Origin: an uncultured Bacteroidales bacterium
GTDB lineage: Bacteria; Bacteroidota; Bacteroidia; Bacteroidales; Muribaculaceae
Length of the DNA: 45,744 bases
NCBI GenBank assembly: GCA_902776955.1
Contig: CACYSG010000015.1
Coordinates: 1-45,744 of the forward strand
Direction: 5' to 3'
Shown here: in pieces, positions 12,546 through 33,925 of the stretch
Layout of the letters: every line of letters begins with the position of its first letter
How positions within the stretch are numbered: the first letter of the stretch is position 1
The notes under the pieces: model-generated
Databases searched by the model: none
Seen by the model: the letters and a program-made list of their open reading frames with translations, nothing else
What the model was told of the DNA's origin: nothing
Made by a program: the position numbers and the translations under genes

Positions 12546-15497
12546 TCACTTAAGCATCAACTTGACGCTCTTCTCACGCACTCTCACAATGTAGAGGCCA
12601 CCTGCATTCACAGGAATCTTGTTGCGGCCAATCTGCAGGTTGACAGATCGAGCGCGCCCAATAGCATCACAAATCAACGCACTCTGCTCCACAGGACTCT
12701 CAATAATGATGTTCTGCCCCTCGGCATAAATCTTCACTTCCACCGCACTCTCATCCAAAGCAGTAGTAGTTGTATTACTGTCTTTCAGAGAGAGTTCAAG
12801 TTCGTTACCGTCGAGTTCATCCTCTTGCCCATCATCAGGCAATACCAAGCCAGCATAAGGTACAATGCCGCTTGCGTCAAAAGTCAGAGTAACGGTTTTG
12901 GATGCCGCACTGCCTCCGCTGATGGTGAGAGTACCGGCTGCTCGCTGTACGTGAAGGGCGACATTGCATCTCACGGTCACGGTGTAACCCGCAGCGGCTT
13001 GTGCGGCTGTAATCGTGGTGGGACTGACAGTGAAGTTAGTGTTATTCGTCCTTAAAGTCAGGCTACCAGTCAAGTTGGTGCCCTTCACCGTTAAGGTTCG
13101 AGAATCTCGGTATCCTGCAAATAATAAGGAATTCGTGTTGGTGGTAATTTCAGCGCATTTTCCGCTTAGGCTGACAGTCTTATTCGCTGCGCTACCACCC
13201 TTGATGGTGAGGGTTGCGTTATGCGTTCCTGCTACAGTCGGCTTGTAGGTCACGGTAACGGTAACACCGTTTACTGCATTAGCGGCAGTAATCGTTGTGG
13301 GACTGACGGTATAGTAAGAGCTGTTAGTCGACAGCGTTAGATTTCCGGTTAAGTTGGTGCCTTTAACAGTAAGGGTCTTGGATACCGCCTTGCTTTTAGC
13401 GGTTGTTCCGAAACTCAATGACGAGACGCTCGAAGTAATCTCAGCGCACTTTCCGCTTAGGCTGACAGTTTTGGTTACATTGCTGCCACTCTTGATGGTT
13501 AGGGTCGCATTGTGTATTCCTGCGACAGTCGGTTTGTAGGTCACTGTCACAGTATAACCGTTTGCTGCCTGTGCTCCGGTAATCGTTGTTGGGCTGACGG
13601 TAAAGTATGAGCTGTTAGTTGATAGCGTGACACTTTCACTTAAGTTGGTGCCAGTAATAGTAAAGGTCTTGGTGGCCGCCTTGTTTTTAGCGGTAGTTCC
13701 AAAATTTAATGACGAGACGCTCGAAGTAATCCCACCACATTTTCCGCTCAAGCTGACAGTCTTGTTTGCAGCGCTGCCACCCTTAATGGTCAAGGTTGCG
13801 CTGTGCGAACCTGCGGCAGTCGGTTTGTAGGTAACGGTTACGGTAACACCGTTTGCTGCATTAGCTGCGGTAATCGTTGTGGGACTGACAGTATAGTAAG
13901 AATTGTTAGTTGACAGTGTTAGACTTCCGGTTAAGTTGGTGCCTTTAACAGTCAGGGTCTTGGAGACCGCCTTGTTTTTAACGGTAGTTCCAAAACTCAA
14001 TGACGAGACGCTCGAAGTAATCTCAGCGCACTTTCCACTCAAGCTGACAGTCTTGTTTGAAGCATCGCCACCCTTGAAGGTCAGGGTTGCGCTGTGCGAT
14101 CCTGCTACAGTCGGCTTGTAGGTCACGGTTACGGTAACACCGTTTGCGGCCTGTGCTGCTGTAATCGTTGTGGGGCTGACGGTATAGTAAGAGCTGTTGG
14201 TCGACAGCGTTAGGCTTCCGGTTAGGTTGCTACCCTTAACAGTAAGGGTTTTGGAGACAGCTGTGCTTTTAGCGGTAGTTCCAAAGCTCAATGTTGACAC
14301 AGTTGGAGTGATAGTCGGCTGAGGACACAAGTGGGTAATAATGGCCTGATTATAATTATAGGTATAGTTATCCCCGTCTTTAAAAGCGTTTAATGGAAAA
14401 TAATCGTCACTATAGCCGCTTGCTCCCCAGTTGATATGGTACTTATTGGTGCTGGCATTGTAGCCATCGACGATAAAAGCATGACCAGCATAGGTGTCTT
14501 CATCAATTTTGTGATCCCCCCCAAAATAAACAGGGCGCTTAGCCGTTAATTCTGTTTGTATCAACGTTGCCCATTCTTCATCTGTTTTTAATAACTTATT
14601 TGTGATAGGATCATTCTTATTGACTACTTTTGCATTGCTGTTGTAACCGAACTTTTTTGCAGCAGAGAGAACATCATAATCGGATGCGCCGCTGCCACCA
14701 CTGATACTACTGCCATCACTAACAAGAGGGCCATAATTCATAAGTTCGGCTTGTCCCACATATCGCATAAGCCAAGCTACCGCTTCGGCTTGAGTGTCTG
14801 TATAGCTGGAACTATAAGACGTCTTCATGTTACTCCAATCTATAGTTCTGCTGTTCAGTTTACCCACAGATATTCCTGTTGCCGTTGTATATGCACTTAG
14901 GGTTGGTGCCGTAGCAGGGTATTTCCAATAATACATGATCTGAGCCAATGCCGTGGCAGCACATCCAGTGGGACATATATAATACTCTCCTTCATAAGGA
15001 AATAAAGGACAATGATTACAATAAGGGAAGAGTTGATCCCATTTTGTCGTGATTAGTATACCTACACTTGACGCCTGCAGGGATGGACTTGTCGAGATTT
15101 CTTTTTCAACCTGGAGCTTGGGATGGGAGAATAAATAATCAATCTGCTCCTTGAACATGCCCAGCATGAATTTCATGCCATCGGGGATGTTGTTTATGTC
15201 CAGTTGTCCTGAACCATAGCCTAGAATATCAACGGCGCGGTCGTCGCCCGAGACAATGACATAGCTGTCCCTGGTGTTATACACATAGTAAACCGCCTGT
15301 TTGCTATTGATGCTGCTCGGCTCGGCATGGACCAACTTAAGTTGCTGCGTTGATGATGCTGTGAACTTGTCATGTCCTGCCATCGACGTCGTGAAATTTC
15401 GGGCCACATTCAGAGCCCTGGACTCATCAATCGGTGTAGCCCAACCCTGTACGAAAACCAGGACAAGAGCAATGAGAGATAGTAGTTTCTGTTTCAT
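12546..15497 (-). CDS. Secreted C10 (streptopain-type) cysteine peptidase with five repeats
   Basis: This 983-aa protein has a Sec signal peptide (residues 1-20, cut near GWA-TP). A SpeB-like propeptide (about 21-140) precedes the peptidase domain. Catalytic Cys179 lies in CPTGCAATALAQIMYYW, His339 in YAGHAFIVDGY, and the Asn/Trp loop in YHINWG (N356-W357). Residues about 395-880 are five repeats of about 97 aa, each with SLSFGTT...KTLTVKGTNLTGSLTLSTN...YTVSPTTITAA...VTVTYKPT, an Ig-like surface-protein pattern (choice-of-anchor/HYDIN type). The last ~75 residues (VEVKIYAEGQNIII...GLYIVRVREKSVKLMLK) resemble a type IX sorting tail. It is probably surface-attached or secreted. It is a single-gene unit with its own terminator. 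Confidence 0.9.
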   Translation of the reverse strand: MKQKLLSLIALVLVFVQGWATPIDESRALNVARNFTTSMAGHDKFTASSTQQLKLVHAEPSSINSKQAVYYVYNTRDSYVIVSGDDRAVDILGYGSGQLDINNIPDGMKFMLGMFKEQIDYLFSHPKLQVEKEISTSPSLQASSVGILITTKWDQLFPYCNHCPLFPYEGEYYICPTGCAATALAQIMYYWKYPATAPTLSAYTTATGISVGKLNSRTIDWSNMKTSYSSSYTDTQAEAVAWLMRYVGQAELMNYGPLVSDGSSISGGSGASDYDVLSAAKKFGYNSNAKVVNKNDPITNKLLKTDEEWATLIQTELTAKRPVYFGGDHKIDEDTYAGHAFIVDGYNASTNKYHINWGASGYSDDYFPLNAFKDGDNYTYNYNQAIITHLCPQPTITPTVSTLSFGTTAKSTAVSKTLTVKGSNLTGSLTLSTNSSYYTVSPTTITAAQAANGVTVTVTYKPTVAGSHSATLTFKGGDASNKTVSLSGKCAEITSSVSSLSFGTTVKNKAVSKTLTVKGTNLTGSLTLSTNNSYYTVSPTTITAANAANGVTVTVTYKPTAAGSHSATLTIKGGSAANKTVSLSGKCGGITSSVSSLNFGTTAKNKAATKTFTITGTNLSESVTLSTNSSYFTVSPTTITGAQAANGYTVTVTYKPTVAGIHNATLTIKSGSNVTKTVSLSGKCAEITSSVSSLSFGTTAKSKAVSKTLTVKGTNLTGNLTLSTNSSYYTVSPTTITAANAVNGVTVTVTYKPTVAGTHNATLTIKGGSAANKTVSLSGKCAEITTNTNSLLFAGYRDSRTLTVKGTNLTGSLTLRTNNTNFTVSPTTITAAQAAAGYTVTVRCNVALHVQRAAGTLTISGGSAASKTVTLTFDASGIVPYAGLVLPDDGQEDELDGNELELSLKDSNTTTTALDESAVEVKIYAEGQNIIIESPVEQSALICDAIGRARSVNLQIGRNKIPVNAGGLYIVRVREKSVKLMLK
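12858..14315 (-). repeat. Tandem ~291-bp repeats inside the C10 peptidase gene
   Basis: Five in-frame repeats encode the 97-residue Ig-like units. Units 1-4 are close at the DNA level; for example CGAAGTAATC recurs at about 291-bp spacing near 13430, 13720 and 14010. The fifth, nearest the C-terminus, is diverged and shorter. The in-frame, near-identical copies should be prone to recombination that changes repeat number. Confidence 0.85.
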
Positions 15498-19520: not shown

Positions 19521-19541
19521 AGTGTCATTTGGGTTTAGCGG

Positions 19542-20645
19542 TTATTTCTTTTGGAATACGCGCACGTAGTCCACCTCCATGGTCACGGGCAGGACGCTCT
19601 CGTCAACACCCTGGGCACCACCCCAGTCTCCACCCCAAGCGAGGTTGAAGATGATGTAGAACGGGTCGTCATAGGGCCAGTCGTCGCGGCCCAGGCCACG
19701 GTTGTCGTAGCTCAGCTGCACCTTACCGTCAACATAGGTGGTAATGTTCTGGGCCGTCCACTCGATAGCATAGGTGTGGAACTCGCCCTCGGCACCCTTG
19801 CAATACATCTCGTGGGTCACCTGTGTGCCGTTGGAGTGCACATGCGCATTGGCGTGCAGGCTCGATGACACATAGTCGGGGTGGTAACCCACCTCTTCCA
19901 TGATGTCGATCTCGCCGTCGGCAGGCCAGGAATGGAAGTTGACAGGCATCATCCAGAAGGCGGGCCAGGTACCCTTGCCCTTAGGCAGCTTGATGCTGGC
20001 CTCGATGTAGCCATATTTCCAGCCCTGTCTATCCTTGGCGTACACGCGTCCCGAGTAGATCTTGCCGTTCTCCTTGAGGGCGGTGATGCGAAGCTTGCCG
20101 TCACGAATCTCGGTAACAAGACGTCCATCGGGGGTCTTGTGGTTCACGTAGTTCTGCAACTCGTGGTTTACCCAACCACTGTTCTGAACCTCGTGCCTCC
20201 AGTCGTCGCCGTTCAACTCCGAGCCCTTGTCGAACTCGTCGTGCCAGACGAGGGTGTAGCCGTCGGGAGCATAGTAGGCCGCCTCGGCAGCAGCCTCCTG
20301 GGTGATGTTGATCGACTTGCGCGCCGAACTCGACATGATGGTGACCGTACCCGTGCGGGTATCGGTAAAGGGGTTGGCAGCGACAGAGATCTTGAGCGTG
20401 CCCGACTTGGACAGCGTGTTCTGGGCATCGATCGTGATGAAGTCCTGCTCGGTATACGCTCCCCATTCCTTGCCGGTAGTGGTGACGTTGATGGTGTATT
20501 CACCACCGCTGGCAGGGACTGCGATGCTTTCCTGCGATACCGTGATGTTTATCGCAGGTGCCGGCTCATCCTTGCCGTCTCCCCCGCAGCCCAAGAGGAC
20601 TGCGGCGAGAGATAGCAAAAGCGTATGAAGCATATAGCGTTTCAT
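19542..20645 (-). CDS. GH16 endo-beta-glucanase lipoprotein with BACON domain
   Basis: This 367-aa protein has lipoprotein signal LAAVLLGC (Cys20). A BACON-type Ig domain occupies about residues 33-117 (ITVSQESIAVPASGGEYTINV...KSINITQEA). The GH16 domain is at about 128-367. The catalytic motif GEIDIMEEVG gives nucleophile E245, D247 and acid/base E250. WHDEFDKGSELNGDDW and the C-terminal EVDYVRVFQ are typical of laminarinase/lichenase-type GH16. It should cut internal beta-1,3 or mixed beta-1,3/1,4 bonds at the cell surface. It sits 9 nt after the glycan-binding lipoprotein gene in the same operon. Confidence 0.93.
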   Translation of the reverse strand: MKRYMLHTLLLSLAAVLLGCGGDGKDEPAPAINITVSQESIAVPASGGEYTINVTTTGKEWGAYTEQDFITIDAQNTLSKSGTLKISVAANPFTDTRTGTVTIMSSSARKSINITQEAAAEAAYYAPDGYTLVWHDEFDKGSELNGDDWRHEVQNSGWVNHELQNYVNHKTPDGRLVTEIRDGKLRITALKENGKIYSGRVYAKDRQGWKYGYIEASIKLPKGKGTWPAFWMMPVNFHSWPADGEIDIMEEVGYHPDYVSSSLHANAHVHSNGTQVTHEMYCKGAEGEFHTYAIEWTAQNITTYVDGKVQLSYDNRGLGRDDWPYDDPFYIIFNLAWGGDWGGAQGVDESVLPVTMEVDYVRVFQKK

Positions 20646-20654
20646 CTTGAATGA

Positions 20655-22601
20655 TTATTGTGCTTTGTGCTTTTGGATGATGATGTTGCTCACCTTGGCC
20701 TCAAAGCCGGCGGGACATCCACCAAAGTCGAGGATGAACTTGCCCTGGTCAAACGAAATCTCATCCGGACCGTTCTTGGCAACGACGTTAACGAACTCAA
20801 GTACGTTCTCGCCGTCCTCAAGCGCGAACAGGCCATTGTAGCAAAGCGTGTTGGGGTCATTGGTCACGTCGGGATCCTTGTTGACCTTGACGGTAGCACG
20901 AGCCAATTCCATGTTGGTGGTGATGGTGACACGCACGTCATAGCCCTGACCCTTCTCGATGTGCAGGGGCACGCCGTTGATGGCGCACTGAGCCTGCCAC
21001 TCGGCCGAAGTAGCATTGTTGGCAGTGATGGTGTAGACACCGTTGGCATAGGAGAAGCCCGGGTCGGCAATCTGTGACCAACCGGCATCGGCCCACCAGA
21101 AGCTCATGGTGCCTGCGGTATTGAAACCAGCACCCAGGTTCTCGGGAGAATTCACGTCAACCCATTCAACTTCGGGCTCGTCGGGAGTAACGGGCAGCAC
21201 GGTGCCATCGTCGTTGGCATGGTCCTTGAGCACGATGTTCGCGATGTTGACAGTGGTACCAGCCTGGCAGCCACCGAAGTCGAAGAACAGGTTAACACGT
21301 TCCATATCGATACCGGGCATGTCGCTCTTCCAGAAGATGTAGTCCTCTCCTGCCTTCAGGTCAACGCGGTCGGCAAAGTAGAAGACGTTGTCATCACCAT
21401 CCATCACGAGCTTCACGGTAACACCGTTAATGTCCTTGTCGGTGGTAAGGATGCAGGAGAAGTCATAGTTCTTGTCGGCCGAGGTTGAGATGTTGGTGGT
21501 CTTGAAGGCGCACTGAGCCTGCCACTGGTCGGTAGTTGCCTCGGGCAGGAAAATGGTATAGTCAATACCATTGTCCTCAAATTCGGGATCGGCAATCTGA
21601 CTCCAGCCGGGAGCGTACCAGAAGAACATGTAGAAGTCGGCATCCTTCCACATATTGAAGTCGCTGTAGGGATCGAAACCGTCAAATTCCTTCTCCTCGG
21701 GATCGCTGGTAAAGATGAAGCGCCAGGCGATGCTGCGGTCTTTAGGCTCGTAAATGAGCACCATCTTCTTGGCAGTCAGCATCTCGATGCGGAAGCGCGG
21801 GTTCTCGTACTGCTCATTAGAGCTGATGTAGGGGAACAAGGTATTGGGGGCAAGCTGGATATAGGTCTGCTTGCTCTTGTTGCCGCTAGCATCTTCCCAG
21901 TCATACACCTCAAAGCTCCAGCTGGAGGTCTGGTCACCGATGGTGGCATCCCAGTCGTCATTGGTCGCGGGACCCCACTTGGTAGTACCCTTGTTCACAT
22001 AGGTCAGTCCATCCTCACCGCAATTATAGAGGTATTTGCCACCCTTAGCGGTCTCGGCGGTGAAATAGATGCGGTCGTCATACAGACCGAAGGCACTCTT
22101 CTCGTCAGGCTGAGCCGACCACCATCCGGTACCATCGGCTCCGGCGGGACCGCAAGCCAAGTGGGCCACTTCCTTGTGGTCGAGGCGCCAGTCCTTCTCG
22201 GCGATGCGGCGGAAGTCGTTAGTATAGTCAATCTTGGACTCGTTGAAGGTGTACTCCTTCTTGATACCGGTCTGGCTGATGCCGTTGCGGTTGCCCAGAC
22301 GCAGCTCGATGGTGTGGGTACCGGCTTCGTTGTTCTTGTAACCCACTTCCTGCAGGGTGGAGTAGGACGTTCCGTCAAGGATCCATACAGGATAGGTACC
22401 AGGCTGCGGCGTGTAGCTTGCAATCATCTGGTTGGTCTCCTGGTCAACAGAGATATTGAAATCCACACCGCTCACCGTGGGAAGGCCGTCGGGATCTGCG
22501 CCTTCAAATTGTTCGGGCGAGCAGGCCGTGAAAGCTAAAGCCAATAGACAATAACTGATAAAAGCTATTGCGCTGCTTTTTTTGTTTATCTTGGTAATCA
22601 T
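20655..22601 (-). CDS. Surface glycan-binding lipoprotein with duplicated CBM-like domains
   Basis: This 648-aa protein has lipobox LAFTAC (Cys27). A PKD/Ig-like region follows (about 40-120: VDFNISVDQETNQMIASYTPQPGTYPVWILDG). The C-terminal half contains two similar modules. Each has GWSQIADP(E/G)F, then a W-QAQCA(F/I) strand, a (T)T-(K/N)- stretch and a closing FDFGGCQAG / LDFGGCPAG strand before an IVLKDH / IIIQKH end. These look like CBM4-type beta-sandwiches that bind beta-glucans. It fits the position and build of SGBP-B proteins, after susD and before the surface GH16. No enzyme motif is seen. Confidence 0.85.
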   Translation of the reverse strand: MITKINKKSSAIAFISYCLLALAFTACSPEQFEGADPDGLPTVSGVDFNISVDQETNQMIASYTPQPGTYPVWILDGTSYSTLQEVGYKNNEAGTHTIELRLGNRNGISQTGIKKEYTFNESKIDYTNDFRRIAEKDWRLDHKEVAHLACGPAGADGTGWWSAQPDEKSAFGLYDDRIYFTAETAKGGKYLYNCGEDGLTYVNKGTTKWGPATNDDWDATIGDQTSSWSFEVYDWEDASGNKSKQTYIQLAPNTLFPYISSNEQYENPRFRIEMLTAKKMVLIYEPKDRSIAWRFIFTSDPEEKEFDGFDPYSDFNMWKDADFYMFFWYAPGWSQIADPEFEDNGIDYTIFLPEATTDQWQAQCAFKTTNISTSADKNYDFSCILTTDKDINGVTVKLVMDGDDNVFYFADRVDLKAGEDYIFWKSDMPGIDMERVNLFFDFGGCQAGTTVNIANIVLKDHANDDGTVLPVTPDEPEVEWVDVNSPENLGAGFNTAGTMSFWWADAGWSQIADPGFSYANGVYTITANNATSAEWQAQCAINGVPLHIEKGQGYDVRVTITTNMELARATVKVNKDPDVTNDPNTLCYNGLFALEDGENVLEFVNVVAKNGPDEISFDQGKFILDFGGCPAGFEAKVSNIIIQKHKAQ

Positions 22602-22627
22602 AATTTTAATCTCTAAATTACTGATTA

Positions 22628-24163
22628 TTAATAGTTGTTCTGAACCAGAGTGGGATCAGCGTCAAGCTCGCTCTGTGCCAGAGGAATATGCTTCTTGCTG
22701 GGCGTCCACGCGTGAGTGCGGTAGCCGTAGCTGTCGGGAACCAGTACGGTAGAAGCCTTCTGAGTGGCACCGGGGATACCCTCGGCGCGCACGAGGTCGA
22801 AGTAGCGCTTGCCCTCGCCGCAGAATTCCAGGTGACGCTCGGTGAAGATGTCGTCGATGGTGACGGAGGTGAGGTTGTCAAGACCTGCACGGTTGCGAAC
22901 CTGGTTCACATAGCCAGCAGCCTCGGCTGCGCTACCGCCGGTCTGGAGCAGCAGCTCGGCTGCGTTGAGCAGAGTCTCGGCATAACGGTAGATGCGCTTG
23001 TTGTTGTTATAGTTCAGGTTCTTGGAAGTCGGGCAGTCCTTGTTGTTGTCGGACTGCGGACGATACTTGCCGTGCCAGATGTGGGTGTCCTGGTAGCGCT
23101 CGGTGTAGCTGAAGCCACGAACGTCCCAGCAGGTAACGTCACGACGCTTGTCGTTCTCGGCATACATGTTGTAAGCCTCCACGCGCATCGGCAGGAAGCC
23201 CCAACCGTCGTTGCCGCTGTCCCAGCCTTCACCGCCGCCCCAGCCGTTAGGAGAGCACAGGGTGGGGAATACGGTACCACCGGCAGCCATCGAGGTGCCC
23301 CAGTCGCGCTGGGCCTGGTCGTCGTTGTAGTTGATCTCGAAGATGCTCTCGGCGCACCACTCGCCACTCTCCTGCCACAGGTCCTTGAAACTGGGGTTGA
23401 GGGCGTATTGCGAGTCGTTGATAATCTGCTTCATGTAACCCAGGGCGGTAGCATAGCGTGCATTGTCGTTCTGGTACATGACCATCTCGGCATAGAGCAT
23501 GTAGGCAAAGGCCTGGCTCACGCGTCCACTCTCGGCAGTGGGCCAGCGCATGGGCAGCACGTTGCTGGCGATGATCTCCTCGAGCTCGGGCATGAGCTTG
23601 TTGTAAATCTCGTCAGCCGAGATCTGCGGGGCGGTGTAGGGCAACGAGAGGTTCTCCAGATAGAAGGGAACGTTGCCGTAGTAGTGCCACAGGATATTAT
23701 AATAGTACACGCGCAACAGGCGGGCCTGCATCTCCATCGACAGGCGGAAGTCTAAACTGGCTTCGCTCTCCCAGGATGCATACTTGATGGCATCGTTGCA
23801 ACGCTTGATGCCGCTGTAGAAGTCGCCCCACAGGGTGGCGAGGGTGTTGTTGCCGTCGGCTTCAAAGTTGAACAGACGGTGCCAGTGCTGGTTGTCGGTG
23901 TTATCGGCACCGCCTACCCAGAAGTCGTCGCCCATGATTTCACCGTCAACGGTAAGGTCGTTGTAGGCCGTTCCGTCCCAGTCGGGCCAGTGAAGGGGAG
24001 CATAAGCGGCAGTGAGGGCCTCGTCGAGGGCATCCTCGGTGGTGTAGTATTCCTCAAGGGGCTCACCCGTCGGGTTCTTCACCTCAAGAAAATCGTCGCT
24101 GCAGGCAGTCAGCATGAGAAATGCTGCACACAGTCCTGCTATGATTGAAATATGCTTGTTCAT
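22628..24163 (-). CDS. SusD-family surface glycan-binding lipoprotein
   Basis: This 511-aa protein has lipobox LMLTAC (Cys21) followed by SDDFLEVKNPTGEPLEEYYTTEDAL, the standard SusD start. Helical TPR-like regions and the RagB/SusD C-terminal part (AETLLNAAELLLQTGGSAAEAAGYVNQVRNRAGL...FTERHLEFCGEGKRYFDLVR) are clear. SusD lids the SusC transporter and captures oligosaccharide. It lies 21 nt after susC. Confidence 0.95.
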   Translation of the reverse strand: MNKHISIIAGLCAAFLMLTACSDDFLEVKNPTGEPLEEYYTTEDALDEALTAAYAPLHWPDWDGTAYNDLTVDGEIMGDDFWVGGADNTDNQHWHRLFNFEADGNNTLATLWGDFYSGIKRCNDAIKYASWESEASLDFRLSMEMQARLLRVYYYNILWHYYGNVPFYLENLSLPYTAPQISADEIYNKLMPELEEIIASNVLPMRWPTAESGRVSQAFAYMLYAEMVMYQNDNARYATALGYMKQIINDSQYALNPSFKDLWQESGEWCAESIFEINYNDDQAQRDWGTSMAAGGTVFPTLCSPNGWGGGEGWDSGNDGWGFLPMRVEAYNMYAENDKRRDVTCWDVRGFSYTERYQDTHIWHGKYRPQSDNNKDCPTSKNLNYNNNKRIYRYAETLLNAAELLLQTGGSAAEAAGYVNQVRNRAGLDNLTSVTIDDIFTERHLEFCGEGKRYFDLVRAEGIPGATQKASTVLVPDSYGYRTHAWTPSKKHIPLAQSELDADPTLVQNNY

Positions 24164-24184
24164 ATTAGTTGTTCTTTTAGGATG

Positions 24185-27100
24185 TTAAAGTGAAATGTTA
24201 AACCCGATAGAATAGGTACGAGCCTGCGGATAAACACCGTAGTCAACACCCAGGCTGGTGGAACCGGAACCGATCTCAGGATCGAAGCCCCAATACTTGG
24301 TCCAGGTGAAGAGGTTCTCGGCGCGGCCGTAGATGCGGAAGCGGCTGATGCCGATCTTGCTGGTCAGACGGGGATTCAGGGTGTAACCCAGGGTGATGTT
24401 CTTCAAGCGCAGATAGCTGCCGTCCTGAATGTACATGTCACTGCAAACCCAGTTCTTGGAGTCGCCCAGGGTGGGAACCTTGTCACTGGTGCCCTCACCG
24501 GTCCAGCGCTGGAGTACCCAAGTGGGATAGTTACCCGAAGCGATGTCCTGGCGATAGGTGGCGTCAAAGACGTCGGCACCATGAACGCCCTGGAAGAAGA
24601 CGCCAAAGTCAAAGCCTCTCCAGTCCACATCGAAGTTCAAACCGAAGGTCCAGTCGGGCACACCGTTACCGATGTTGGTGCGGTCGTCGCTGTTGATGAC
24701 GTTGTCGGCATTGGTATCCACGAAGCGGAAGTCGCCGGGGTTGGAGTTAGTGCCGTACTTGGCATTGTAGGCCTCGGCCTCGGCCTTGGTCTGCAGGATG
24801 CCGTCGGTCTTGTAGCCGTAGAAGAAGGGGAAGGGCTGGCCGTTCTCGGCGCGCGTGCCACCGTCGCTGAACTGGCTGATGCCATAGTTCAGGAAGCCGG
24901 TGTCATTACCCAGGTTCTTAAGCTTGTTCTTCAGGTAGGAAGCGTTGCCCCTGAGAGCGAAGTGAACATCCGAAACGTTCCAGCGATAACCGAGCTCAAA
25001 CTCAACACCGCTGTTCTCCATGTCACCGACGTTGGCCAGAGGACGGGCCTCACCCACGTAGCTCGGGATGGGCATCTCGATGATCATACCGTTGGTCTTC
25101 TTGATGTAGTAATCTACGCTGAAGGTCAGCTTGTTGTTCCAGAAGCCCAAATCGAGGCCGAGGTCGGTCTGCTCGCTCTCCTCCCACTTCAGGTCTTCGT
25201 TGGCCAGGCGGTTAGCCTTAGAACCGTAAACCATAGCGGCGGTCTGTCCGAAGTAGTAGTTGCTGGTGTTACCCAGTGTGGTCATGGTCGTGTAAGCAAA
25301 GTCGCCGATGTTGTCGTTACCGTTCTTACCCCAGCTGAAACGCAGCTTCATGTTGCTCAGCCAGTCGCGCTGGTCCTCCATGAACTTCTCGTTCATGATG
25401 TTCCAACCCAGCGAGAACGACGGGAAGATACCATACCTGTGGTTGGAACCGAAGCGGCTCGAACCGTCACGACGTACGGTAGCCTGGAACATGTAGCGCT
25501 CGTCGTAGTTGTAGCTTACACGGGCGAACAGTGAAGACAGGCGATGCTCGGTGTAGGGACCACCCCAAGCACCGACGAGGCTTGTTGCACCAGTCATCTT
25601 GCCGTCGGCATCGGTCGAGATTTCCAAGTCGCCACCGACGGTGTAGTTGATGCTGGGCTTATAGGGATTAGCGAGATACCAGTGTGAACCGCCCAGCTCG
25701 TCACCCTTGAACTTCAAGGCGCTCTGACCGAGCACGATACCGATGGTGTGCTTACCGAAGGCCTTGTCATAGGTTACCGTGTTCTCGACCTGCCAGGTGG
25801 TGTTGTTACCCTTGAAGGCAACAGCCGAAGTGTGGTCGGCGTTGTTGTTACCCGAGAGGTAGTACTCCTGCAAGGTGGCGCCATTGTAGCCCCAGAAGGA
25901 GAGCTCGGCGCTGTAGGTGAAGTGATACCTCAACTCGTCGAACAGCTGCAAGTCAACCGAGAACTTGGGCATGAACTTGTGGCTCCAGTTCTTGTTGGGA
26001 TTGCCTTGCATCATGGCGATGGGGTTGTTCTGCTCCTGATAGCTGCCGATAAAGCCGGGGATGGTGTAGGGATTGCCCTCCTCATCGGTATACAGGTCAT
26101 AGGCGCTGTAGCGTTTGATCATCTCATTTGCGGCGTTACCCTTCAGCACAACGGGCAGGGTGGGAGCCAGGTAGAGGGCCGAACCCAGGGGAGAACCCCA
26201 CGTGGAGTTGGCCTCAATGCCTGTGCTGTGCACGCGCATATAAGAAAGGTTGGCGCCCAGGTCAAGCTTGTTCAGGAAGTTGCGCTCCTTGGAAGCGTCA
26301 AAGAGGTTGTACTGGTTGTTCGAGCGGATGGTCAGACGGTCGTAGTTGGACTGACCGTAATTACCGCCAACGATACCGTCCTGCTTGAAGTAACCCAGTG
26401 AGAGGTAGTAGTTCAACTTGTCGGAGGCTCCGCTGATGCTCACGTCATGCTGCATGATGGGAGCGTTGTCGTTGAAGAGGAGTTTCTGCCAGTCGGTACC
26501 GAAGCCCACAATCTTGTCGCCGTTGGCGTCAGTCAGGTTGTAGGGATCGGGGTACTGCGGAGAAAGACCGTTCTGGATGCGACGCTCGTTCTGCAGGATA
26601 GCATAGTCGGTGGCACCGGTCACCTGACGCTTTCTCCAGGCACTCTGCCAGCCATAGGAGAAGTTGTAGGTGATGTTGGCCCTACCCATTTTGCCCTTCT
26701 TGGTGGTCACGAGGATAACACCGTTGGCAGCACGGGCACCGTAGATAGCACCCGAGGCGGCATCCTTCAGCACCTCAATACTCTCGATATCATTGGGGTT
26801 CACGCTCTCCATACCATATTGGTCGGTGGGCATGCCGTCAATGATGTAAAGAGGATTGGAGTCGTTGATGGTGCCGATACCGCGGATGCGGATCATCGAC
26901 TGGGAACCGGGCTGACCCGACGAGGAGGTGACGTTCACACCGGCGGCCATACCCTTCAGGGCATCCTCGGCACGCAGGCGGGTCTTACCAGCCAGGTCCT
27001 CGGAGGAAACCTTGGCGATAGAGGCCGTCACGACGCTCTTCTTCTGCACACCGTAACCGATAACGACCACCTCGTTAAGCAACTCGGAGTCCTCGGTGAG

Positions 27101-27373
27101 GGTGATGTGCATGTTGTTACCAGCAAGCACGGTCTGCTTGCCAAAACCCACATAAGTGATTTCCAACTCGGCACCCGCGGGCGCGTTGATGGAGAAATTG
27201 CCGTCGAAGTCGGTTACTACCGTGTTCGACGTGCCCTTTTGCACGATCGTGGCACCAATCACAGGCTCACCGTTGGGATCAACGATGGTACCCGTGAAGG
27301 TCTGGTTCTGTGCAAATGCCACTATTGCCAGCATGACTGTCAACAGCAGTGAAAGTAATCTCTTTTCTTTCAT
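24185..27373 (-). CDS. SusC-family TonB-dependent outer-membrane transporter
   Basis: This 1062-aa protein has signal peptide residues 1-21. A carboxypeptidase-D-like regulatory domain follows (about 24-100: [22 protein letters not shown]). The TonB-box/plug start is [21 protein letters not shown]. The SusC signature is [12 protein letters not shown]...[32 protein letters not shown]. A 22-strand-type barrel runs to the aromatic end [12 protein letters not shown]. It imports oligosaccharides across the outer membrane using TonB energy. It is the first gene of the operon, transcribed divergently from the regulator at 27704. Confidence 0.96.
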   Translation of the reverse strand: [1062 protein letters not shown]

Positions 27374-27642: not shown

Positions 27643-27674
27643 TTGGTTTTTCACTATTTTACCCGTACATTTGC
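27643..27674 (+). promoter_or_regulatory. Promoter of the PUL regulator
   Basis: TTG (27643-27645), a 20-nt spacer and TACATTTGC (27666-27674) match the Bacteroidota promoter. The start codon at 27704 is then about 30 nt from the -7 element. This argues against an upstream TTG start at 27671, which lies inside the promoter. Confidence 0.75.
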
Positions 27675-27703
27675 CCAATCAAGTGAAAAGCCGCAAGAAG
27701 CCT

Positions 27704-29350
27704 ATGAGACATCTGATGATAATAACCTTGCTGCTAGCCCTGTCGTTACAGGCTGCAGCCGACATAAACCTGGAGCAAGAATACCGCCGACTGGACCAAG
27801 CGATTGAACAGACCGAACGATATGTGCAGCAGCGCGAGAGCCGTATCCAGAATTACAAAACCGCCCTTCAAGTGACCGACGACAGTAAGGCGCGTTATGA
27901 GATGTGCCATAAACTGTACGAGGAGTATCACCCCTACATGAGCGATTCTGCCATCCATTACATCGGCAGGTGCATCACGCTGGCCGAGCAGATGCAGGAC
28001 CCCGTACGCGCCGACGAGTGCCGGCTCAAGTTGGCTTTCCAGTGCACCGAGTCGGGCATGTATCATGAGGCCATGGACGTGCTCAATTCCCTCGACGCGG
28101 CGAGAATCAATGCCTCTAACAACCGCCGTCGCTACTACAGCACGCTGGCCCACCTGTATGGTGAACTGGGCTACTACTGCAAGGTGCCGCAACTGCAGGG
28201 GAAGTATTATGCCAAGCACGACGAGTACATCAGGATGATGGGCTCTGACAGCATCCCGGTAAACGACGATGAGGCCTTGCAGATGAAGGAAGTGGAACGC
28301 TTTGCCGCAGGTGACGGTGAGGGAGCGTTGCGCTACAGCGACCTCCGCCTCAAGCAGGTCAAGGAGGGCTCGCATGAGTACGCCATCGTGGCATTTTACC
28401 GCTATTTGGACTATATGGCCCTGGGCGACTCGGTGCAGTCACGCTACTGGGTGACGCAGTCGGCCCTGAGCGACGTCAAGAATGCCGTGATGGATCAGGG
28501 CGCGATGTGGGAACTGGCCAACAAGCTCATGGCCGACGGGGACATCAACCGCGCCTACCGCTACATTCATTTTGCCTGGCAGTGCGCCAACCGCTTCAAC
28601 ACCATGAAACGCAACAATCAGATTTCGCCCGTCCTCACCGTCATCAGCGACAACTATGAGGCGTCGCTCAAGCATGCCAACCGCCTGCTGGCGGTGCTGG
28701 CAGTGGTGGCTAGCCTGTTGACGGCCTTGTTGGCGGTCATCCTGTTCTATAGCAACAGCCAGCGCAAGAAACTTGCCCGCGCCCGTAACGAGCTGAGCGA
28801 GAGCAATACACAACTGGCACAGCTGAACAGCCAGCTGTCTGATCTCAACAGCCAGCTGCATGAGACCAACATCAAGTTGGGCGACTCCAACCGCGTCAAG
28901 GATGAGTATGTGGGACGTTTTATCCATCTGTGCTCCTTCTACATCGACCGCCTGGACGAGATGCGCAAGCAGGTGAATAAGATGGTCAAGAGCAAGGACC
29001 TGAACGCCCTGCACCGCTTCACCAGCGACAGCGAGTTGCGCGACAAAAACCTTGCCGACCTCTACGAGATGTTCGACAGCACGTTCCTGCACCTGTTCCC
29101 CAACTTCGTGAACGACTTCAACGCCCTGTTGCGTCCCGAGTGCCGCATCGTCCTGCCCGACCCCAAGACGCTCAACACCGACGTGCGCATTTTTGCCCTC
29201 ATCCGCCTCGGCATCGAGGATAGCAGCCGCATCGCCGAATTCCTGCATTACTCGGTCAACACCATCTATAACTACCGCGCCAAGATCAAGAACGGCGCCC
29301 TTGGCGACCGTGATACCTTCGAGGCGCAGGTTAAGTCCATAGATATGTGA
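27704..29350 (+). CDS. SusR-like membrane-spanning PUL regulator (DUF6377-type)
   Basis: From the ATG at 27704 the protein is 548 aa. It has a signal peptide or anchor (RHLMIITLLLALSLQAAA). A helical TPR-like sensor region covers about 25-320. One membrane helix lies at about 328-349 (LLAVLAVVASLLTALLAVIL), followed by a coiled coil (about 355-400, repeated NSQL/ESNTQL/ETNIKL). The C-terminal part carries a helix-turn-helix at about 495-530 (LIRLGIEDSSRIAEFLHYSVNTIYNYRAKIK). This is the build of one-protein transmembrane regulators that sense periplasmic sugar and activate the adjacent susC operon. Its divergent position supports that. The ligand is unknown. Confidence 0.85.
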   Translation: MRHLMIITLLLALSLQAAADINLEQEYRRLDQAIEQTERYVQQRESRIQNYKTALQVTDDSKARYEMCHKLYEEYHPYMSDSAIHYIGRCITLAEQMQDPVRADECRLKLAFQCTESGMYHEAMDVLNSLDAARINASNNRRRYYSTLAHLYGELGYYCKVPQLQGKYYAKHDEYIRMMGSDSIPVNDDEALQMKEVERFAAGDGEGALRYSDLRLKQVKEGSHEYAIVAFYRYLDYMALGDSVQSRYWVTQSALSDVKNAVMDQGAMWELANKLMADGDINRAYRYIHFAWQCANRFNTMKRNNQISPVLTVISDNYEASLKHANRLLAVLAVVASLLTALLAVILFYSNSQRKKLARARNELSESNTQLAQLNSQLSDLNSQLHETNIKLGDSNRVKDEYVGRFIHLCSFYIDRLDEMRKQVNKMVKSKDLNALHRFTSDSELRDKNLADLYEMFDSTFLHLFPNFVNDFNALLRPECRIVLPDPKTLNTDVRIFALIRLGIEDSSRIAEFLHYSVNTIYNYRAKIKNGALGDRDTFEAQVKSIDM

Positions 29351-29781: not shown

Positions 29782-32025
29782 ATGAGAAGATTACTTGTAC
29801 TACTTGTGGTGGGATTGATGTGTCTGGTTGCGCGCGCGGTTCCTGCAGATCCTACTCCCTCGACAATCACTCAACCTGATGGAACTAAACTCACCGTGGT
29901 ATTACATGGTGACGAGTTCTTCAACTACCTGACGACTGCCGATGGCTATACCGTAGTGAAGAATGCTGCAGGTTTTTACACCTATGCTCGTCTCGACGGG
30001 AACAATTTGGTCGCTACCGACTTGATTGCCCGCGATAGCCGTACGGCTGCCGACCGTGCCTACCTCGCTGGTGTGTCCAAGGGGCTGGTCAGCAGTACCA
30101 TGAAAGATCATGGCCGACAGTTGTTAAAACAACGCAACAACGTGTTGCGCGGCATTGGTCACGGTGGTCACATGGACTACAGCAAGTTCCGTGGCTTGAT
30201 CATCCTGATCAACTACACCAACAGGAATTTTAATGATTACGTTCCCAGTAACTACAATCCTGTTGACTTCTACGAGGCTATGATCAATAGCCACGATTAT
30301 CAGGGCTTCACGCTTCCCTTCGGCACTAAGATTGACGCGATGGGCAGTGTCCGCGATTACTTCTATGATAACTCCTTCGGGCAGTTCGACCCGCACTTCG
30401 ACATCCTGGGTCCGGTGGATGTGCCCTACGCTTGCACCGACGCCCATCAGTTCGATTGCGACTCCATCTTCTTTGCCGCGCTCGAGGCGCTTGACCCCGA
30501 GGTGGACTTCAGCCAGTATGATACCGATGAAGACGGCACGGCCGACATGGTCTTCTTCCTGGTTGCCGGTCACGGCTCGGATGTCCCCGCCAATGACCGC
30601 GACCTCCTGTGGCCCCACATGAAGAATTTCACCGATTCTCCCGTTCTCGACGGTGTGAACTTCAAGCTCTATGCCTGCTCGACCAACATGACCGGCGAGG
30701 AGGATGAATACCGCATCAATTACAACAATGTTGCTGGCATTGGCACTATCTGCCACGAGTTCAGCCATTGCCTGGGTCTGCCCGACTTCTATGATGCCGA
30801 TGCCGATGGCAGCGGTGGCACTAACCGTAACTATCCCATGACCTGGTCTGTCATGGCCAGCGGCTTCAGGAGCAACAATGGCCGCAATCCTGTCGGCTAC
30901 AGCTTGTTTGAGCGCTATGCCTTGGGCTTTGCAAAGCCTACCTTGATTGAGGGCGAAGACACCATTTCGATACCGGCTCTTGAAAAGGCTAATATGGGTT
31001 ACCGCATGAACACCGCCAACGAGGATGAGTACTTCATCATCGAGAATCGCCAGCGCGTTAAGTGGGACAAGAACCTTGCCGGCCCCGGCATGCTTATCTG
31101 GCGCGTCGATTCCTCGAATGTTGAGGTTTGGGAGAACAACCTCGTCAATTCCAACCCCGAACGCTCGTACTATGAGTTGATCCGTGCCAATTTCAGCGGA
31201 ATCAGCGATAGTTACAATGACCCCTTCCCCGGCGTTTCCAATGTCACTTCGATCACTAACGTCACGACTCCCAACCTGCGCACGTGGGACGGTAAGTTGA
31301 GCCGTTATGCCTTTACTAACATTACTCAGGCCGACAGTATCATCACCTTTACCGTGGTTAGAGACAAGTCCAAGGCTTCCATGGAAGACTTCGAGGGAAT
31401 GCCTGTGGCTGCCACGCTCAACCAGCGCGGTGTTCAAGGTGTGTTCGCCAAGTGGGACTTCTACAATTGCGGCGTAGTGGACACTGCTCAAGTGGCCGAG
31501 GGACATGCTGTCGCCATGAGAAACGGCAGCTACTTTAACACGGCTGAGAACTTGAACAAGATTCCTAAGATTGTGACCCTCAAGATCTACAATCCCACTT
31601 CATCAAGCATTACCATCAGGCCCCAGTACTCCACCAACAACGGCCAGAGCTGGAAAACGCTGGATACTTACATCTATGAGTATCCCGTTGCTGCCGGCAC
31701 TTCGACCAAGGTCACGATTACCGAATTCCCCACCAACGTGCCCATCATGCTGCGCTTCAGGGAGTCATCGGGTAGCTCGTCGGAGTATTGCTTCATCGAC
31801 GACATCGAGATCAGCTACGAGAACACCTGGACGCCCGAGTTCATTCCTGGTGATGTGAACGGTGACGGCCTCGTGAACGTTGCTGACGTCACCTCGCTCA
31901 TCAATTACAATCTAAACGACGGTGGCGATATCATTGTGGAAGCTGCCGACTTGGACGGAAACACTGAAATCAACATTACTGACATTGTTCAGCTCATCTC
32001 CATGGTGTTGAACGCTGAGCAGTAA
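29782..32025 (+). CDS. Secreted M6-type metallopeptidase with dockerin-like C-terminus
   Basis: This 747-aa protein has a signal peptide (RRLLVLLVVGLMCLVARA). The M6 (immune-inhibitor-A-like) catalytic region has zinc site HEFSHCLGLPD (H325, E326, H329, D335). Supporting family stretches are GLIILINYTNRNF, MGSVRDYFYDNSFGQF and TDEDGTADMVFFLVAGHGSD. A beta-rich middle (about 500-685) precedes residues 689-747, which hold two EF-like calcium loops, GDVNGDGLVNVADV and ADLDGNTEINITDI, the layout of a type I dockerin. It is secreted. Another dockerin-bearing peptidase follows 69 nt downstream. No cohesin gene is in the window. Confidence 0.9.
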   Translation: MRRLLVLLVVGLMCLVARAVPADPTPSTITQPDGTKLTVVLHGDEFFNYLTTADGYTVVKNAAGFYTYARLDGNNLVATDLIARDSRTAADRAYLAGVSKGLVSSTMKDHGRQLLKQRNNVLRGIGHGGHMDYSKFRGLIILINYTNRNFNDYVPSNYNPVDFYEAMINSHDYQGFTLPFGTKIDAMGSVRDYFYDNSFGQFDPHFDILGPVDVPYACTDAHQFDCDSIFFAALEALDPEVDFSQYDTDEDGTADMVFFLVAGHGSDVPANDRDLLWPHMKNFTDSPVLDGVNFKLYACSTNMTGEEDEYRINYNNVAGIGTICHEFSHCLGLPDFYDADADGSGGTNRNYPMTWSVMASGFRSNNGRNPVGYSLFERYALGFAKPTLIEGEDTISIPALEKANMGYRMNTANEDEYFIIENRQRVKWDKNLAGPGMLIWRVDSSNVEVWENNLVNSNPERSYYELIRANFSGISDSYNDPFPGVSNVTSITNVTTPNLRTWDGKLSRYAFTNITQADSIITFTVVRDKSKASMEDFEGMPVAATLNQRGVQGVFAKWDFYNCGVVDTAQVAEGHAVAMRNGSYFNTAENLNKIPKIVTLKIYNPTSSSITIRPQYSTNNGQSWKTLDTYIYEYPVAAGTSTKVTITEFPTNVPIMLRFRESSGSSSEYCFIDDIEISYENTWTPEFIPGDVNGDGLVNVADVTSLINYNLNDGGDIIVEAADLDGNTEINITDIVQLISMVLNAEQ

Positions 32026-32094
32026 TGTCTTGATAAAATATTTCGGAATTATCAACTTTATTTTTTTAACTAAATCATCCATTAACTGTTTTTT

Positions 32095-33849
32095 ATGAAG
32101 AAATTTTTATTGTTAACTGCTGTTCTTGCGATGTTCTCTCAGAACATCGACGCTAAAAGCGTAACTGTTGAGCAGGCCATGGCTATCGCCCAGAGGCACT
32201 GCACAAGTACCCCCGCCATGATGAAGAGCGGAGCTAATGCCAAGATGGAATTAAACTATGTGGCTCGTGGTGCAAAAGGTACCAATGACTTCTATGTGTT
32301 TAACCGTCAGGGTAATCAGGGCTTCGTAATCGTTGCTGGTGACGACGTGTCAACCCCCATCTTGGGTTATAGCGACAAGGGTGCGTTTGATATCAACAAG
32401 GCCCCCGAGACCTTGCGCCTCTTGCTCGAGGAATATCAGAGTCAGATGGAGTGGATGCGTCACAATCCTCAGAAGGCCAATGCTCCTCGTCTCAACTACG
32501 ACTTGCAGCCCTATGGCGTAGCTCCCATCCTGGGTGATGTGCACTGGTGGCAGGGTGCTCCCTACAACAGCAATCTGCCTACCGCTTCCAACATGCCCTC
32601 TGACTGCTTAGGCCATTGCTATGCCGGTTGCGCCGCTGCTGCTCTGGCTCAGATCCTGAAGGCCTTTAGGCACCCGTATCATGGCTATGGTGAGAACTCC
32701 TACACCTGGACCGTGGACGGTCGTGAGTGGACTATGGCGTCCAACTTTGCCAACCACAATTACAGGTACAGCCAGATGAGGACTGGTTATGGTCCCACCT
32801 CGACTTCTACTGGCGTTCGTGATGTAGCTGAGCTGTTCTATGATGTAGACGTTGCCCTGAACATGAGGTTCTACGGTGATAACGGTAGTGACGCCTATAT
32901 CAGGGATATCGTTAAGGCCCTGATCGCTTACTTTGACTACAATCCTGGCATGCAGTACTTGTTGAAGAGCAACTATGCTTACAACGAGGAGGCTTGGAAT
33001 GACATGATCTACGCTGAGATCGATGGTGGCCGTCCTGTTTATTACCTTGGCTATCGCACCATTGACAACTCTGGTAATTCCTGCGAGGTAGGCCATGCCT
33101 TTGTTCTTGACGGTTATGACAGGAACGGTAAGGTTCACGTCAACTGGGGTTTCCAGCCCGAGGAGTATAACACCTACTTCGAGTTGAATATGTTGTCGCC
33201 CAGAATGTACACCGCCGAGGGTTATGGTGAGTTTGACGTTGAGAAATCTGGTTTCAACGCCAAGCAGAGCATGATCATTGGCATCTGCCCCGACACGACT
33301 GGCGTTGGTGGCGTTGTCGTTAAGAACGTTAACCTGGTTGCTGAGCAGATGCCTGCTAACGACGTGCGTGCCACTATCGAAGTTCAGGCTCTGAACGGTC
33401 CTTACAGCGGTAGCTTGAAGTATGGTATCGTTACCAAGGACGATGAGGGTTATCATAACTACTACACCTTCACCGATGAGGTATCTATCGATGAGAACGG
33501 TATTGCAACCCTTGACGTGAGCGGTTCATACGATTGGCTGTATAACGGCCGCACCTACTACATCGTAGTTTGGTCTCCCTACTTCAGCGATAGCTACAAC
33601 TGGTTCCTGGCCGAGCCCGTGCCCTTCACCATTGGTGACTGGGTAACTCCTCCCGATCCCCAGTTCATCCTGGGTGACGTCAATGGTGACGGCGTTGTGA
33701 ACATCACCGACGCAACCATGCTGATTGGTCTGATTCTCGATGGCGATCCTCTTGCCAGCGACTATCCCGCAGGTGACATGAACGAGGACGGTGTCCTGAA
33801 CGTTTCTGACGTTAACCTGCTGATTAATCAGGCTCTGACCGGTGAGTAA
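32095..33849 (+). CDS. Secreted C10 cysteine peptidase with dockerin-like C-terminus
   Basis: This 584-aa protein has a signal peptide (KKFLLLTAVLAMFSQNIDA). A C10 propeptide (about 21-140) precedes the peptidase with catalytic Cys179 (CYAGCAAAALAQIL), His334 (VGHAFVLDGY) and the VHVNWG loop (N350-W351). Residues 526-584 carry two calcium-loop repeats, GDVNGDGVVNITDA and GDMNEDGVLNVSDV, i.e. a dockerin-like domain where the other C10 enzyme here has a type IX-like tail. GGT/GTT/GCT codons are more frequent than in the housekeeping genes. It probably shares a transcript with the M6 gene, and a strong terminator follows. Confidence 0.9.
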   Translation: MKKFLLLTAVLAMFSQNIDAKSVTVEQAMAIAQRHCTSTPAMMKSGANAKMELNYVARGAKGTNDFYVFNRQGNQGFVIVAGDDVSTPILGYSDKGAFDINKAPETLRLLLEEYQSQMEWMRHNPQKANAPRLNYDLQPYGVAPILGDVHWWQGAPYNSNLPTASNMPSDCLGHCYAGCAAAALAQILKAFRHPYHGYGENSYTWTVDGREWTMASNFANHNYRYSQMRTGYGPTSTSTGVRDVAELFYDVDVALNMRFYGDNGSDAYIRDIVKALIAYFDYNPGMQYLLKSNYAYNEEAWNDMIYAEIDGGRPVYYLGYRTIDNSGNSCEVGHAFVLDGYDRNGKVHVNWGFQPEEYNTYFELNMLSPRMYTAEGYGEFDVEKSGFNAKQSMIIGICPDTTGVGGVVVKNVNLVAEQMPANDVRATIEVQALNGPYSGSLKYGIVTKDDEGYHNYYTFTDEVSIDENGIATLDVSGSYDWLYNGRTYYIVVWSPYFSDSYNWFLAEPVPFTIGDWVTPPDPQFILGDVNGDGVVNITDATMLIGLILDGDPLASDYPAGDMNEDGVLNVSDVNLLINQALTGE

Positions 33850-33883
33850 TCTCCAGGCTTAGATTCACAGTAAAACCTTTTCT

Positions 33884-33925
33884 GGTGGCGACAGTGCATC
33901 ACGACTGTCGCCACCACTGTTTTTA
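33884..33925 (+). terminator. Terminator after the dockerin C10 peptidase
   Basis: GGTGGCGACAGT (33884-33895) and ACTGTCGCCACC (33904-33915) make a perfect 12-bp stem. ACTGTTTTTATT follows. It lies 34 nt after the stop codon. Confidence 0.92.

Follow-up and report, generated by a model that had tools for sequence, protein, structure and literature searches.

A predicted cohesin–dockerin network in a gut Bacteroidales lineage, with a pair of secreted peptidases among its candidate cargo

The peptidase pair and its dockerins

We analysed a stretch of 45,744 nt (the window; contig CACYSG010000015.1 of assembly GCA_902776955.1) from an uncultured Bacteroidales bacterium of the family Muribaculaceae, in which two adjacent genes encode secreted peptidases with C-terminal dockerins. 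The first gene (29782..32025, + strand) encodes an M6 metallopeptidase of 747 amino acids (aa) with a signal peptide, the latter called by a crude rule. Its catalytic domain (aa 143-441; 30208..31104, + strand) matches TIGR03296 with E 2.5e-43, and the protein also matches PF05547 with E 3.3e-10. The motif HEFSHCLGLPD at aa 325 (30754-30786, + strand) has the pattern HExxHxxGxxD intact, which we take to be the zinc motif of M6 peptidases. The second gene (32095..33849, + strand) encodes a C10 cysteine peptidase of the streptopain/interpain type, 584 aa long, in which a signal peptide is followed by a Spi-type propeptide inhibitor (PF13734, aa 20-117; 32152..32445, + strand) and the catalytic domain (PF01640, aa 151-362; 32545..33180, + strand), both assigned by Pfam. 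Residues C179 and H334, presumably the catalytic pair, are invariant in an alignment of 27 rows, made from 27 of 30 C10 loci (L183, L188 and L195 were excluded).

The preliminary description of this DNA had stated that both peptidases end in a dockerin-like domain with two calcium loops, and the profile searches bear this out. Pfam assigns a type I dockerin (Dockerin_1, PF00404) to aa 689-742 of the M6 peptidase (31846..32010, + strand) and to aa 526-579 of the C10 peptidase (33670..33831, + strand), with scores of 35.3 and 43.0 bits, respectively, against a curated cut-off of 22.9; in a genome-wide search the two domains scored 41.4 and 47.2 bits. Each has two calcium loops: GDVNGDGLVNVAD (aa 690) and ADLDGNTEINITD (aa 722) in the M6 peptidase, GDVNGDGVVNITD (aa 527) and GDMNEDGVLNVSD (aa 560) in the C10 peptidase. 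The C10 dockerin matches the solved dockerins 2ccl (E 1.8e-6) and 1ohz (E 2.2e-5), while the M6 dockerin matches solved structures weakly (best dockerin 1daq, E 0.0013); the solved dockerins matched are those of cellulosomal proteins. That the dockerins are a chance or repeat artefact is ruled out by the curated cut-offs together with the conservation in relatives described below. For neither peptidase was a match listed to PF18962 or TIGR04183, the profiles for tails of the type IX secretion system (T9SS).

The stop codon of the M6 gene and the start of the C10 gene are separated by 69 bases, and directly 3' of the pair lies a terminator-like hairpin of 13 pairs followed by CTGTTTTTAT (33883..33916, + strand). 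Because of the short gap and the hairpin directly after the pair, the two genes are probably cotranscribed. Seven terminator-like sites were seen in 5.1 kb, with 4.4 expected from shuffled sequences, and this hairpin has the longest stem among them. A promoter scan (seven sites versus 6.6 expected) was uninformative. The M6-C10 stretch had no match in the plasmid collection searched.

Dockerins and cohesin-like domains in the genome and its relatives

The source genome (3.23 Mb in 123 contigs, 89.7% complete) is rich in dockerins. A count of dockerin proteins had been proposed as a check in the preliminary description; it gave at least 154 matches to PF00404 at E <= 10, a lower bound, as 150 of 282 first-look candidates were scored. 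The 150 matches listed are all over the cut-off and fall in 150 open reading frames (ORFs). Among 14 control genomes, some match was seen in nine and a match over the cut-off in two. Among the ungapped rows of the 150 dockerins, no variation was seen in the first Asp of loop 1 or in the last Asp of the loop in either repeat. The position of the domain is mostly C-terminal: among the 143 ORFs whose 3' end is complete, 128 have it at most 13 residues from the stop, two within 80 and 13 further in. In nine of the 150 ORFs (four of these 143 and five of the seven cut at the 3' end) the dockerin begins 23-35 residues from the N-terminus and is followed by a long stretch of protein. We also observed ORFs in which the dockerin directly follows the signal peptide and is itself followed by ∼210-250 residues (L054 14209-15216, L114 2467-3336 and L042 17073-18059).

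Signal peptides were called by the crude rule in 136 of the 142 dockerin ORFs complete at the 5' end. A similarly crude lipobox rule flagged 11 of the 142, most of which appear by eye to be ordinary signal peptides with an incidental Cys, and lipoprotein anchoring of the dockerin proteins was rejected on these grounds.

The search for cohesin domains, likewise suggested in the preliminary description, did find candidate partners in the genome: a scaffoldin-like gene, cohesin-dockerin proteins and leucine-rich repeat (LRR) proteins with cohesins. The absence of any cohesin-like partner, which that description had given as a refuting outcome, was therefore not observed. PF00963 (Cohesin) gives eight matches at E <= 10, of which five are over the cut-off. 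Profile A3, made from nine cohesin-like domains that all come from this genome, has 19 matches at E <= 1; 17 of these reach E <= 1.2e-4 and 15 reach E <= 4e-17, the last being its own nine rows and six others. The scaffoldin-like gene, on contig C12, consists of two gene pieces and carries five cohesins followed by a dockerin; the pieces score 78.9 and 54.5 bits with PF00963 (cut-off 24.1). In this gene (L039, 7601-9870) a frame break lies between near-identical cohesin repeats. No carbohydrate- or cellulose-binding module was found at E <= 0.1 on either piece, the gene being broken and a missing part possible. In a relative, G301, a single open frame encodes four cohesins and a dockerin; no signal peptide was seen at its 5' end.

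The 15 strongest A3 matches lie in this gene and in the other carriers, which are two small cohesin-dockerin proteins (contigs C19 and C35), three LRR proteins with the order cohesin-dockerin-cohesin and a T9SS-like tail (C19, C35 and C65) and two LRR proteins with the order dockerin-cohesin-tail (C31). The LRR protein of C35 scores 25.9 bits with PF00963, over the cut-off, and that of C65 19.2 bits, under it; the cohesins of C19, C31 and the small adaptors rest on profile A3. Within the LRR proteins, the two cohesin-like domains are homologous to each other (hhalign probability 98.6). When profile A1 was compared with PDB sequences, five of the eight best matches were to entries named as cohesin, cellulosomal scaffolding or anchoring proteins (6kgc, 6kg8, 2xdh, 4dh2 and 3ul4); the remaining ones were 5nrm_A and 5nrk_A, chains paired with a dockerin and named endoglucanase, and one NagJ. 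The dockerin between two cohesin-like domains (genes L041 8126-11194, L040 7113-8993 and L042 3776-5971) follows a consensus (TAxY...NPxPF) that the terminal dockerins do not share, and may form an intramolecular clasp or bind a different partner. An alignment of this cohesin-dockerin-cohesin arrangement, searched against genome contigs, kept 80 of 81 relatives, found in records of metagenome-assembled genomes (MAGs) labelled Bacteroidales, Muribaculaceae, Prevotellaceae, Bacteroidaceae, Prevotella and the like, many from ruminants and some from horse. A scan of genome contigs with the scaffoldin found no relative.

Across the genus, an A3 match (E <= 1e-5) is present in 98 of 101 genomes, the source genome included, and in all 48 that are at least 90% complete and no more than 5% contaminated; the three genomes with no match are 61 to 82% complete. 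In a sample of the order, with at most 25 candidates scored per genome, a dockerin match at E <= 0.001 was seen in 88 of 247 genomes and ten or more in 14. We searched 32 genomes of the order with PF00963: the 14 dockerin-rich ones, two of the three with 5-6 dockerins (G039 was left out) and 16 with 0-1 dockerins, hand-picked from the rows shown, genomes with 2-4 dockerins lying outside the set. Cohesin matches (E <= 0.01) were found in 12 of the 14 dockerin-rich genomes, both of those with 5-6 dockerins and one of the 16 dockerin-poor ones (12/14 versus 1/16, Fisher p 1.7e-5). Three genomes of the same family and other genera, with 0-1 dockerins, have no cohesin match with PF00963.

The dockerin end of the C10 peptidase is conserved in relatives. 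When the whole protein, dockerin included, was used as the query, 83 of 101 relatives had a match at E <= 1e-20, and 29 loci besides that of the window were examined. The loci fetched were the best-scoring ones, a choice that favours proteins keeping the dockerin; inspection of the last 62 residues by eye showed that 25 of the 26 relatives with at least 45% identity end in a dockerin. The remaining one, L183, terminates prematurely, and the gene of L188 contains an internal stop. A dockerin also forms the end of three more distant C10 proteins (34-36% identity). Eighteen of the 29 loci contain an M6 ORF with a terminal dockerin as well, 17 of them on the same strand; the flanks span at most 1,500 bases, and the absence of an M6 ORF is not informative.

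Two features of the dockerins point to a shared partner. Over the two repeats, the identity between M6 and C10 dockerins is 0.644 within genomes versus 0.561 between genomes, an excess reached in none of 20000 permutations (18 pairs, 15 of them above the row mean). The within-genome value is also above the between-genome identities of C10 with C10 (0.607) and of M6 with M6 (0.578). The result holds when two near-duplicate genomes are removed (16 pairs), and with L183 included (19 pairs) p is 5e-5. At the putative recognition positions, which we assigned by clostridial numbering, the values are 0.639 within and 0.521 between genomes, a wider gap than at the calcium and core positions (0.715 versus 0.647). 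The second feature is that the dockerins of the source genome can be grouped into classes in which the two repeats agree. At loop position 14, N is seen in 37 first and 33 second repeats, and in both repeats of 29 of 146 dockerins (Fisher p 3.6e-19); counted over 150 dockerins, N stands in neither repeat in 109, in both in 29 and in one in 12. Common descent of dockerins can add to this association. In the window, the C10 dockerin has N in the second repeat only and the M6 dockerin in neither.

A Pfam scan (E <= 0.001) of 147 of the 150 dockerin ORFs, run as sets of 99 and 48 with the three longest left out, showed a broad cargo that is not specifically proteolytic; the counts that follow, given for the first and second set in turn, concern the best 25 of 59 and the best 25 of 49 families, respectively. 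LRR domains are the commonest (LRR_5 of the BspA type 20 + 14, LRR_8 10 + 19). Peptidases comprise Peptidase_C10 (5 + 10), Peptidase_M6 (4 + 2) and Peptidase_S8 (1 + 2), or 24 of 147 ORFs, about one sixth, if none is counted twice. Other families are CotH (at least eight), Alpha-amylase (2 + 3), FGE-sulfatase (3 + 2), GH53 (at least two) and Endonuclease_1 (two plus L068). A cargo dominated by cellulases was not found; a cellulase family outside those listed would have at most one member in the first set and at most two in the second. The proteolytic cohesin-like complex considered in the preliminary description therefore stands in part: cohesin-like partners exist, including a multi-cohesin gene, but the cargo is mixed (34 LRR_5 versus 15 C10, six M6 and three S8). 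For the distinct surface anchor also raised there, the LRR proteins with cohesins and T9SS-like tails are the candidates.

A second C10 peptidase in the window (12546..15497, - strand), with Ig-like (choice_anch_D) repeats, served as a comparison gene. It has no dockerin in the Pfam scan. Its C-terminus, '...AGGLYIVRVREKSVKLMLK', resembles a T9SS tail by eye. The type IX-like tail described earlier for this protein is visible in that sense, but the NCBIfam scan did not list TIGR04183 at E <= 0.1. A polysaccharide utilization locus (PUL; 16125-27373, - strand) adjoins the peptidase pair. It comprises SusC (24185-27373, - strand) and SusD (22628-24163, - strand), both named by sequence and position, a lipoprotein-like protein of 648 aa without a significant Pfam match, a GH16-BACON protein and a fused GH5-GH3-Fn3 protein (16125-19520, - strand). 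None of SusC, SusD, GH16 and GH5-GH3 proteins has a dockerin, judged by Pfam for the enzymes and by inspection of the C-termini. Between the PUL and the pair lies a gene for a DUF6377 protein (27671-29350, + strand; PF19904, E 1.9e-84), which we would guess to be regulator-like.

The proposed network and its alternatives

The dockerins, the cohesin-like domains, their presence throughout the genus, the co-occurrence in the order, the conservation and the within-genome similarity are all observations at the level of sequence. We judge it probable, on these data, that this gut Bacteroidales lineage has a cohesin-dockerin network with the M6-C10 pair among its cargo. It is probably located on the cell surface, and peptidases would be one class of its cargo. 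The M6 and C10 peptidases, both with signal peptides, would leave the cytoplasm through Sec, and their C-terminal dockerins would plug into cohesins in a calcium-dependent manner. Three kinds of carriers may offer these cohesins: the multi-cohesin scaffoldin, which ends in a dockerin of its own; the small cohesin-dockerin adaptors; and the LRR proteins that combine cohesin-dockerin-cohesin modules with a T9SS-like tail, the probable surface anchors of the assembly. The peptidases would then digest extracellular protein at the surface; this location and the order of assembly are predictions as well.

Several points weigh against this interpretation. The scaffoldin gene has a frame break between its second and third cohesin, likely an assembly collapse. 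Pfam lists Cohesin in four of the ten proteins scanned, one of them (C65) under the cut-off, and its scan lists no Cohesin for the two small adaptors, the C19 LRR protein and the C31 proteins. The PDB matches of profile A1 are weak (the two best have E 5e-4, the others 0.039 or worse). Dockerins exceed cohesins about tenfold in the source genome. The cohesin count in the genus rests on A3, which was applied to the genus genomes, not the dockerin-poor ones. G075 and G179, two genomes of one genus with 11 and 10 dockerins, have no PF00963 match; G005 is the other exception to the co-occurrence. Finally, the within-genome excess of dockerin identity is present at the calcium and core positions too (0.715 within versus 0.647 between genomes), and gene conversion or base composition could therefore contribute to it.

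The means of export bear on other readings of the dockerin. SprA_N matches the source genome with E 8.9e-189 in an open frame of 2489 residues, and a T9SS is likely present because SprA is. A second, partial SprA_N match (183.5 bits) was noted at 12045-12596 of contig C78. T9SS tails number nine by TIGR04183 (E <= 0.01) and one over the cut-off by PF18962; a tail profile made for the lineage gives 41 matches, 35 of them at E <= 3.5e-4 and five being its own rows. Just five dockerin ORFs are matched by that profile, and a comparison of coordinates showed that all five are rows of it. It could be argued that the dockerin, rather than being a plug for cohesins, serves the T9SS or another outer-membrane pathway as a signal for sorting or retention. 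We consider this unlikely. Such a signal would explain why 128 of 143 dockerins are C-terminal and 136 of 142 ORFs have a signal peptide, and why a genome with SprA has only nine TIGR04183 tails and so few tailed dockerin ORFs. It would not explain why cohesins track dockerins across the order and the genus, or why some dockerins are near-N-terminal (four of the 143 ORFs plus five of the seven cut at the 3' end). Moreover, the 13 other genomes with at least ten dockerins have 75 to at least 128 TIGR04183 tails, with at most 128 scored; the three family members with 0-1 dockerins have few (6, 8 and 34). G111 has eight such tails and G146 48. SprA was found in 31 of the 32 order genomes and does not separate dockerin-rich from dockerin-poor ones. 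The idea that dockerins are a general substitute for T9SS tails was rejected on the tail counts of the 13 genomes.

A different proposal combines both elements: dockerins would be a second export address of a cell that has a T9SS, with tail-less, Sec-exported enzymes binding cohesin carriers in the periplasm and crossing the outer membrane as passengers of the tailed carriers. We regard it as improbable; if it were true, a few tailed cohesin proteins would place more than 100 tail-less proteins on the surface. It is also doubtful that the dockerin is a calcium-dependent module for folding or stability only, with the cohesin-like domains as structural beta-sandwiches. The multi-cohesin tandem repeats, the cohesin-dockerin co-occurrence in the order and the matching classes of the terminal dockerins speak against it, while the three LRR proteins whose dockerin, with its different consensus, sits between two cohesin-like domains as an intramolecular clasp would, and the two genomes of one genus with 10-11 dockerins and no PF00963 match, fit a folding module. 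That the dockerins attach enzymes to the cohesins of other gut bacteria, such as clostridial scaffoldins, and not to their own, seems very improbable, given that own cohesin-like domains occur in 98 of 101 genus genomes and that the dockerins of M6 and C10 show a tendency to be specific to their genome, even though the dockerins far outnumber the cohesins of the genome and the solved dockerins that they match are from cellulosomal proteins.

Comparison with known systems

Secreted surface peptidases of Bacteroidales are known as T9SS cargo of the gingipain type, which ends in a C-terminal domain (CTD); the M6 and C10 peptidases of the window differ in ending in a dockerin.

Dockerins of rumen Bacteroidetes are in print (PMC7480376, PMC6071333). 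Cohesins have been reported in certain Bacteroidetes, where the dockerin-rich Bacteroidetes bin 136 is also among the bins with tandem cohesins (PMC6071333), and 78 Bacteroidetes MAGs with both dockerin and cohesin have been left for investigation (PMC12997984, 2026). Rumen Prevotella such as UBA3846, having dockerins and cohesins, may make cellulosomes according to PMC9863278, which also mentions a Muribaculaceae genus with dockerins and no cohesin. Other reports describe Bacteroidetes MAGs without a recognisable cohesin, calling the role of the dockerins unclear (PMC7260996), and rumen Bacteroidetes with neither domain (PMC5831590). According to PMC12997984, no cellulosome system had been described outside Firmicutes. 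As far as their accessible parts go, three of these reports (PMC9863278, PMC6071333 and PMC12997984) give domain counts, without architecture, anchors, conservation or peptidase cargo. The presence of dockerins and cohesins in Bacteroidetes MAGs is therefore already published, and no description of the present architecture was found in a search that mostly left out subscription journals. Because partners, architecture and candidate anchors are now named for one genus, the role of Bacteroidetes dockerins becomes testable. The network, if real, would be a cohesin-dockerin assembly on a Gram-negative envelope, and one would have to ask by what route dockerin proteins that lack a tail pass the outer membrane.

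As predicted here, the network would work like a cellulosome; we do not class it as one because no cellulose-binding module was seen on the scaffoldin pieces and no dominance of cellulases was found in the cargo. In common with the cellulosomes of clostridia and Ruminococcus, it has a scaffoldin with several cohesins and a dockerin, proteins that resemble adaptors and anchors, and many secreted proteins bearing dockerins. It differs from them in the Bacteroidales host, in candidate anchors that have LRRs and T9SS-like tails instead of S-layer homology (SLH) domains or sortase signals, in scaffoldin pieces without a listed carbohydrate-binding module and in a cargo whose commonest members are LRR proteins and peptidases. 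CotH-domain proteins, also part of the present cargo, have been reported in cellulosomes (PMC12484212). Many dockerins and few cohesins are the pattern of R. albus and R. bromii (PMC6118326); the large dockerin excess and some amylase cargo resemble this type, while the phylum, the candidate anchors and most of the cargo do not.

Secreted peptidases with a dockerin are known from clostridia, namely a cysteine peptidase of R. flavefaciens on ScaE and an S8 peptidase with a double dockerin of C. thermocellum; unlike these, the peptidases described here belong to C10, M6 and S8 and occur in numbers (24 matches in 147 ORFs), and the M6-C10 neighbourhood recurs in 18 of 29 other loci. The Limousia mucinolysome is a cohesin-dockerin system with peptidases among its cargo and a scaffoldin of five cohesins and a C-terminal dockerin (PMC12997984). 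It resembles the present network in both respects, and differs in being a Firmicute system with mucin glycosidases as the main cargo and a sortase-anchored scaffoldin. The shared dockerin of two neighbouring peptidases and the cohesin-like domains of the same genome suggest that a plug-and-socket system like the cellulosome exists in a group of gut bacteria from which hardly any is known.

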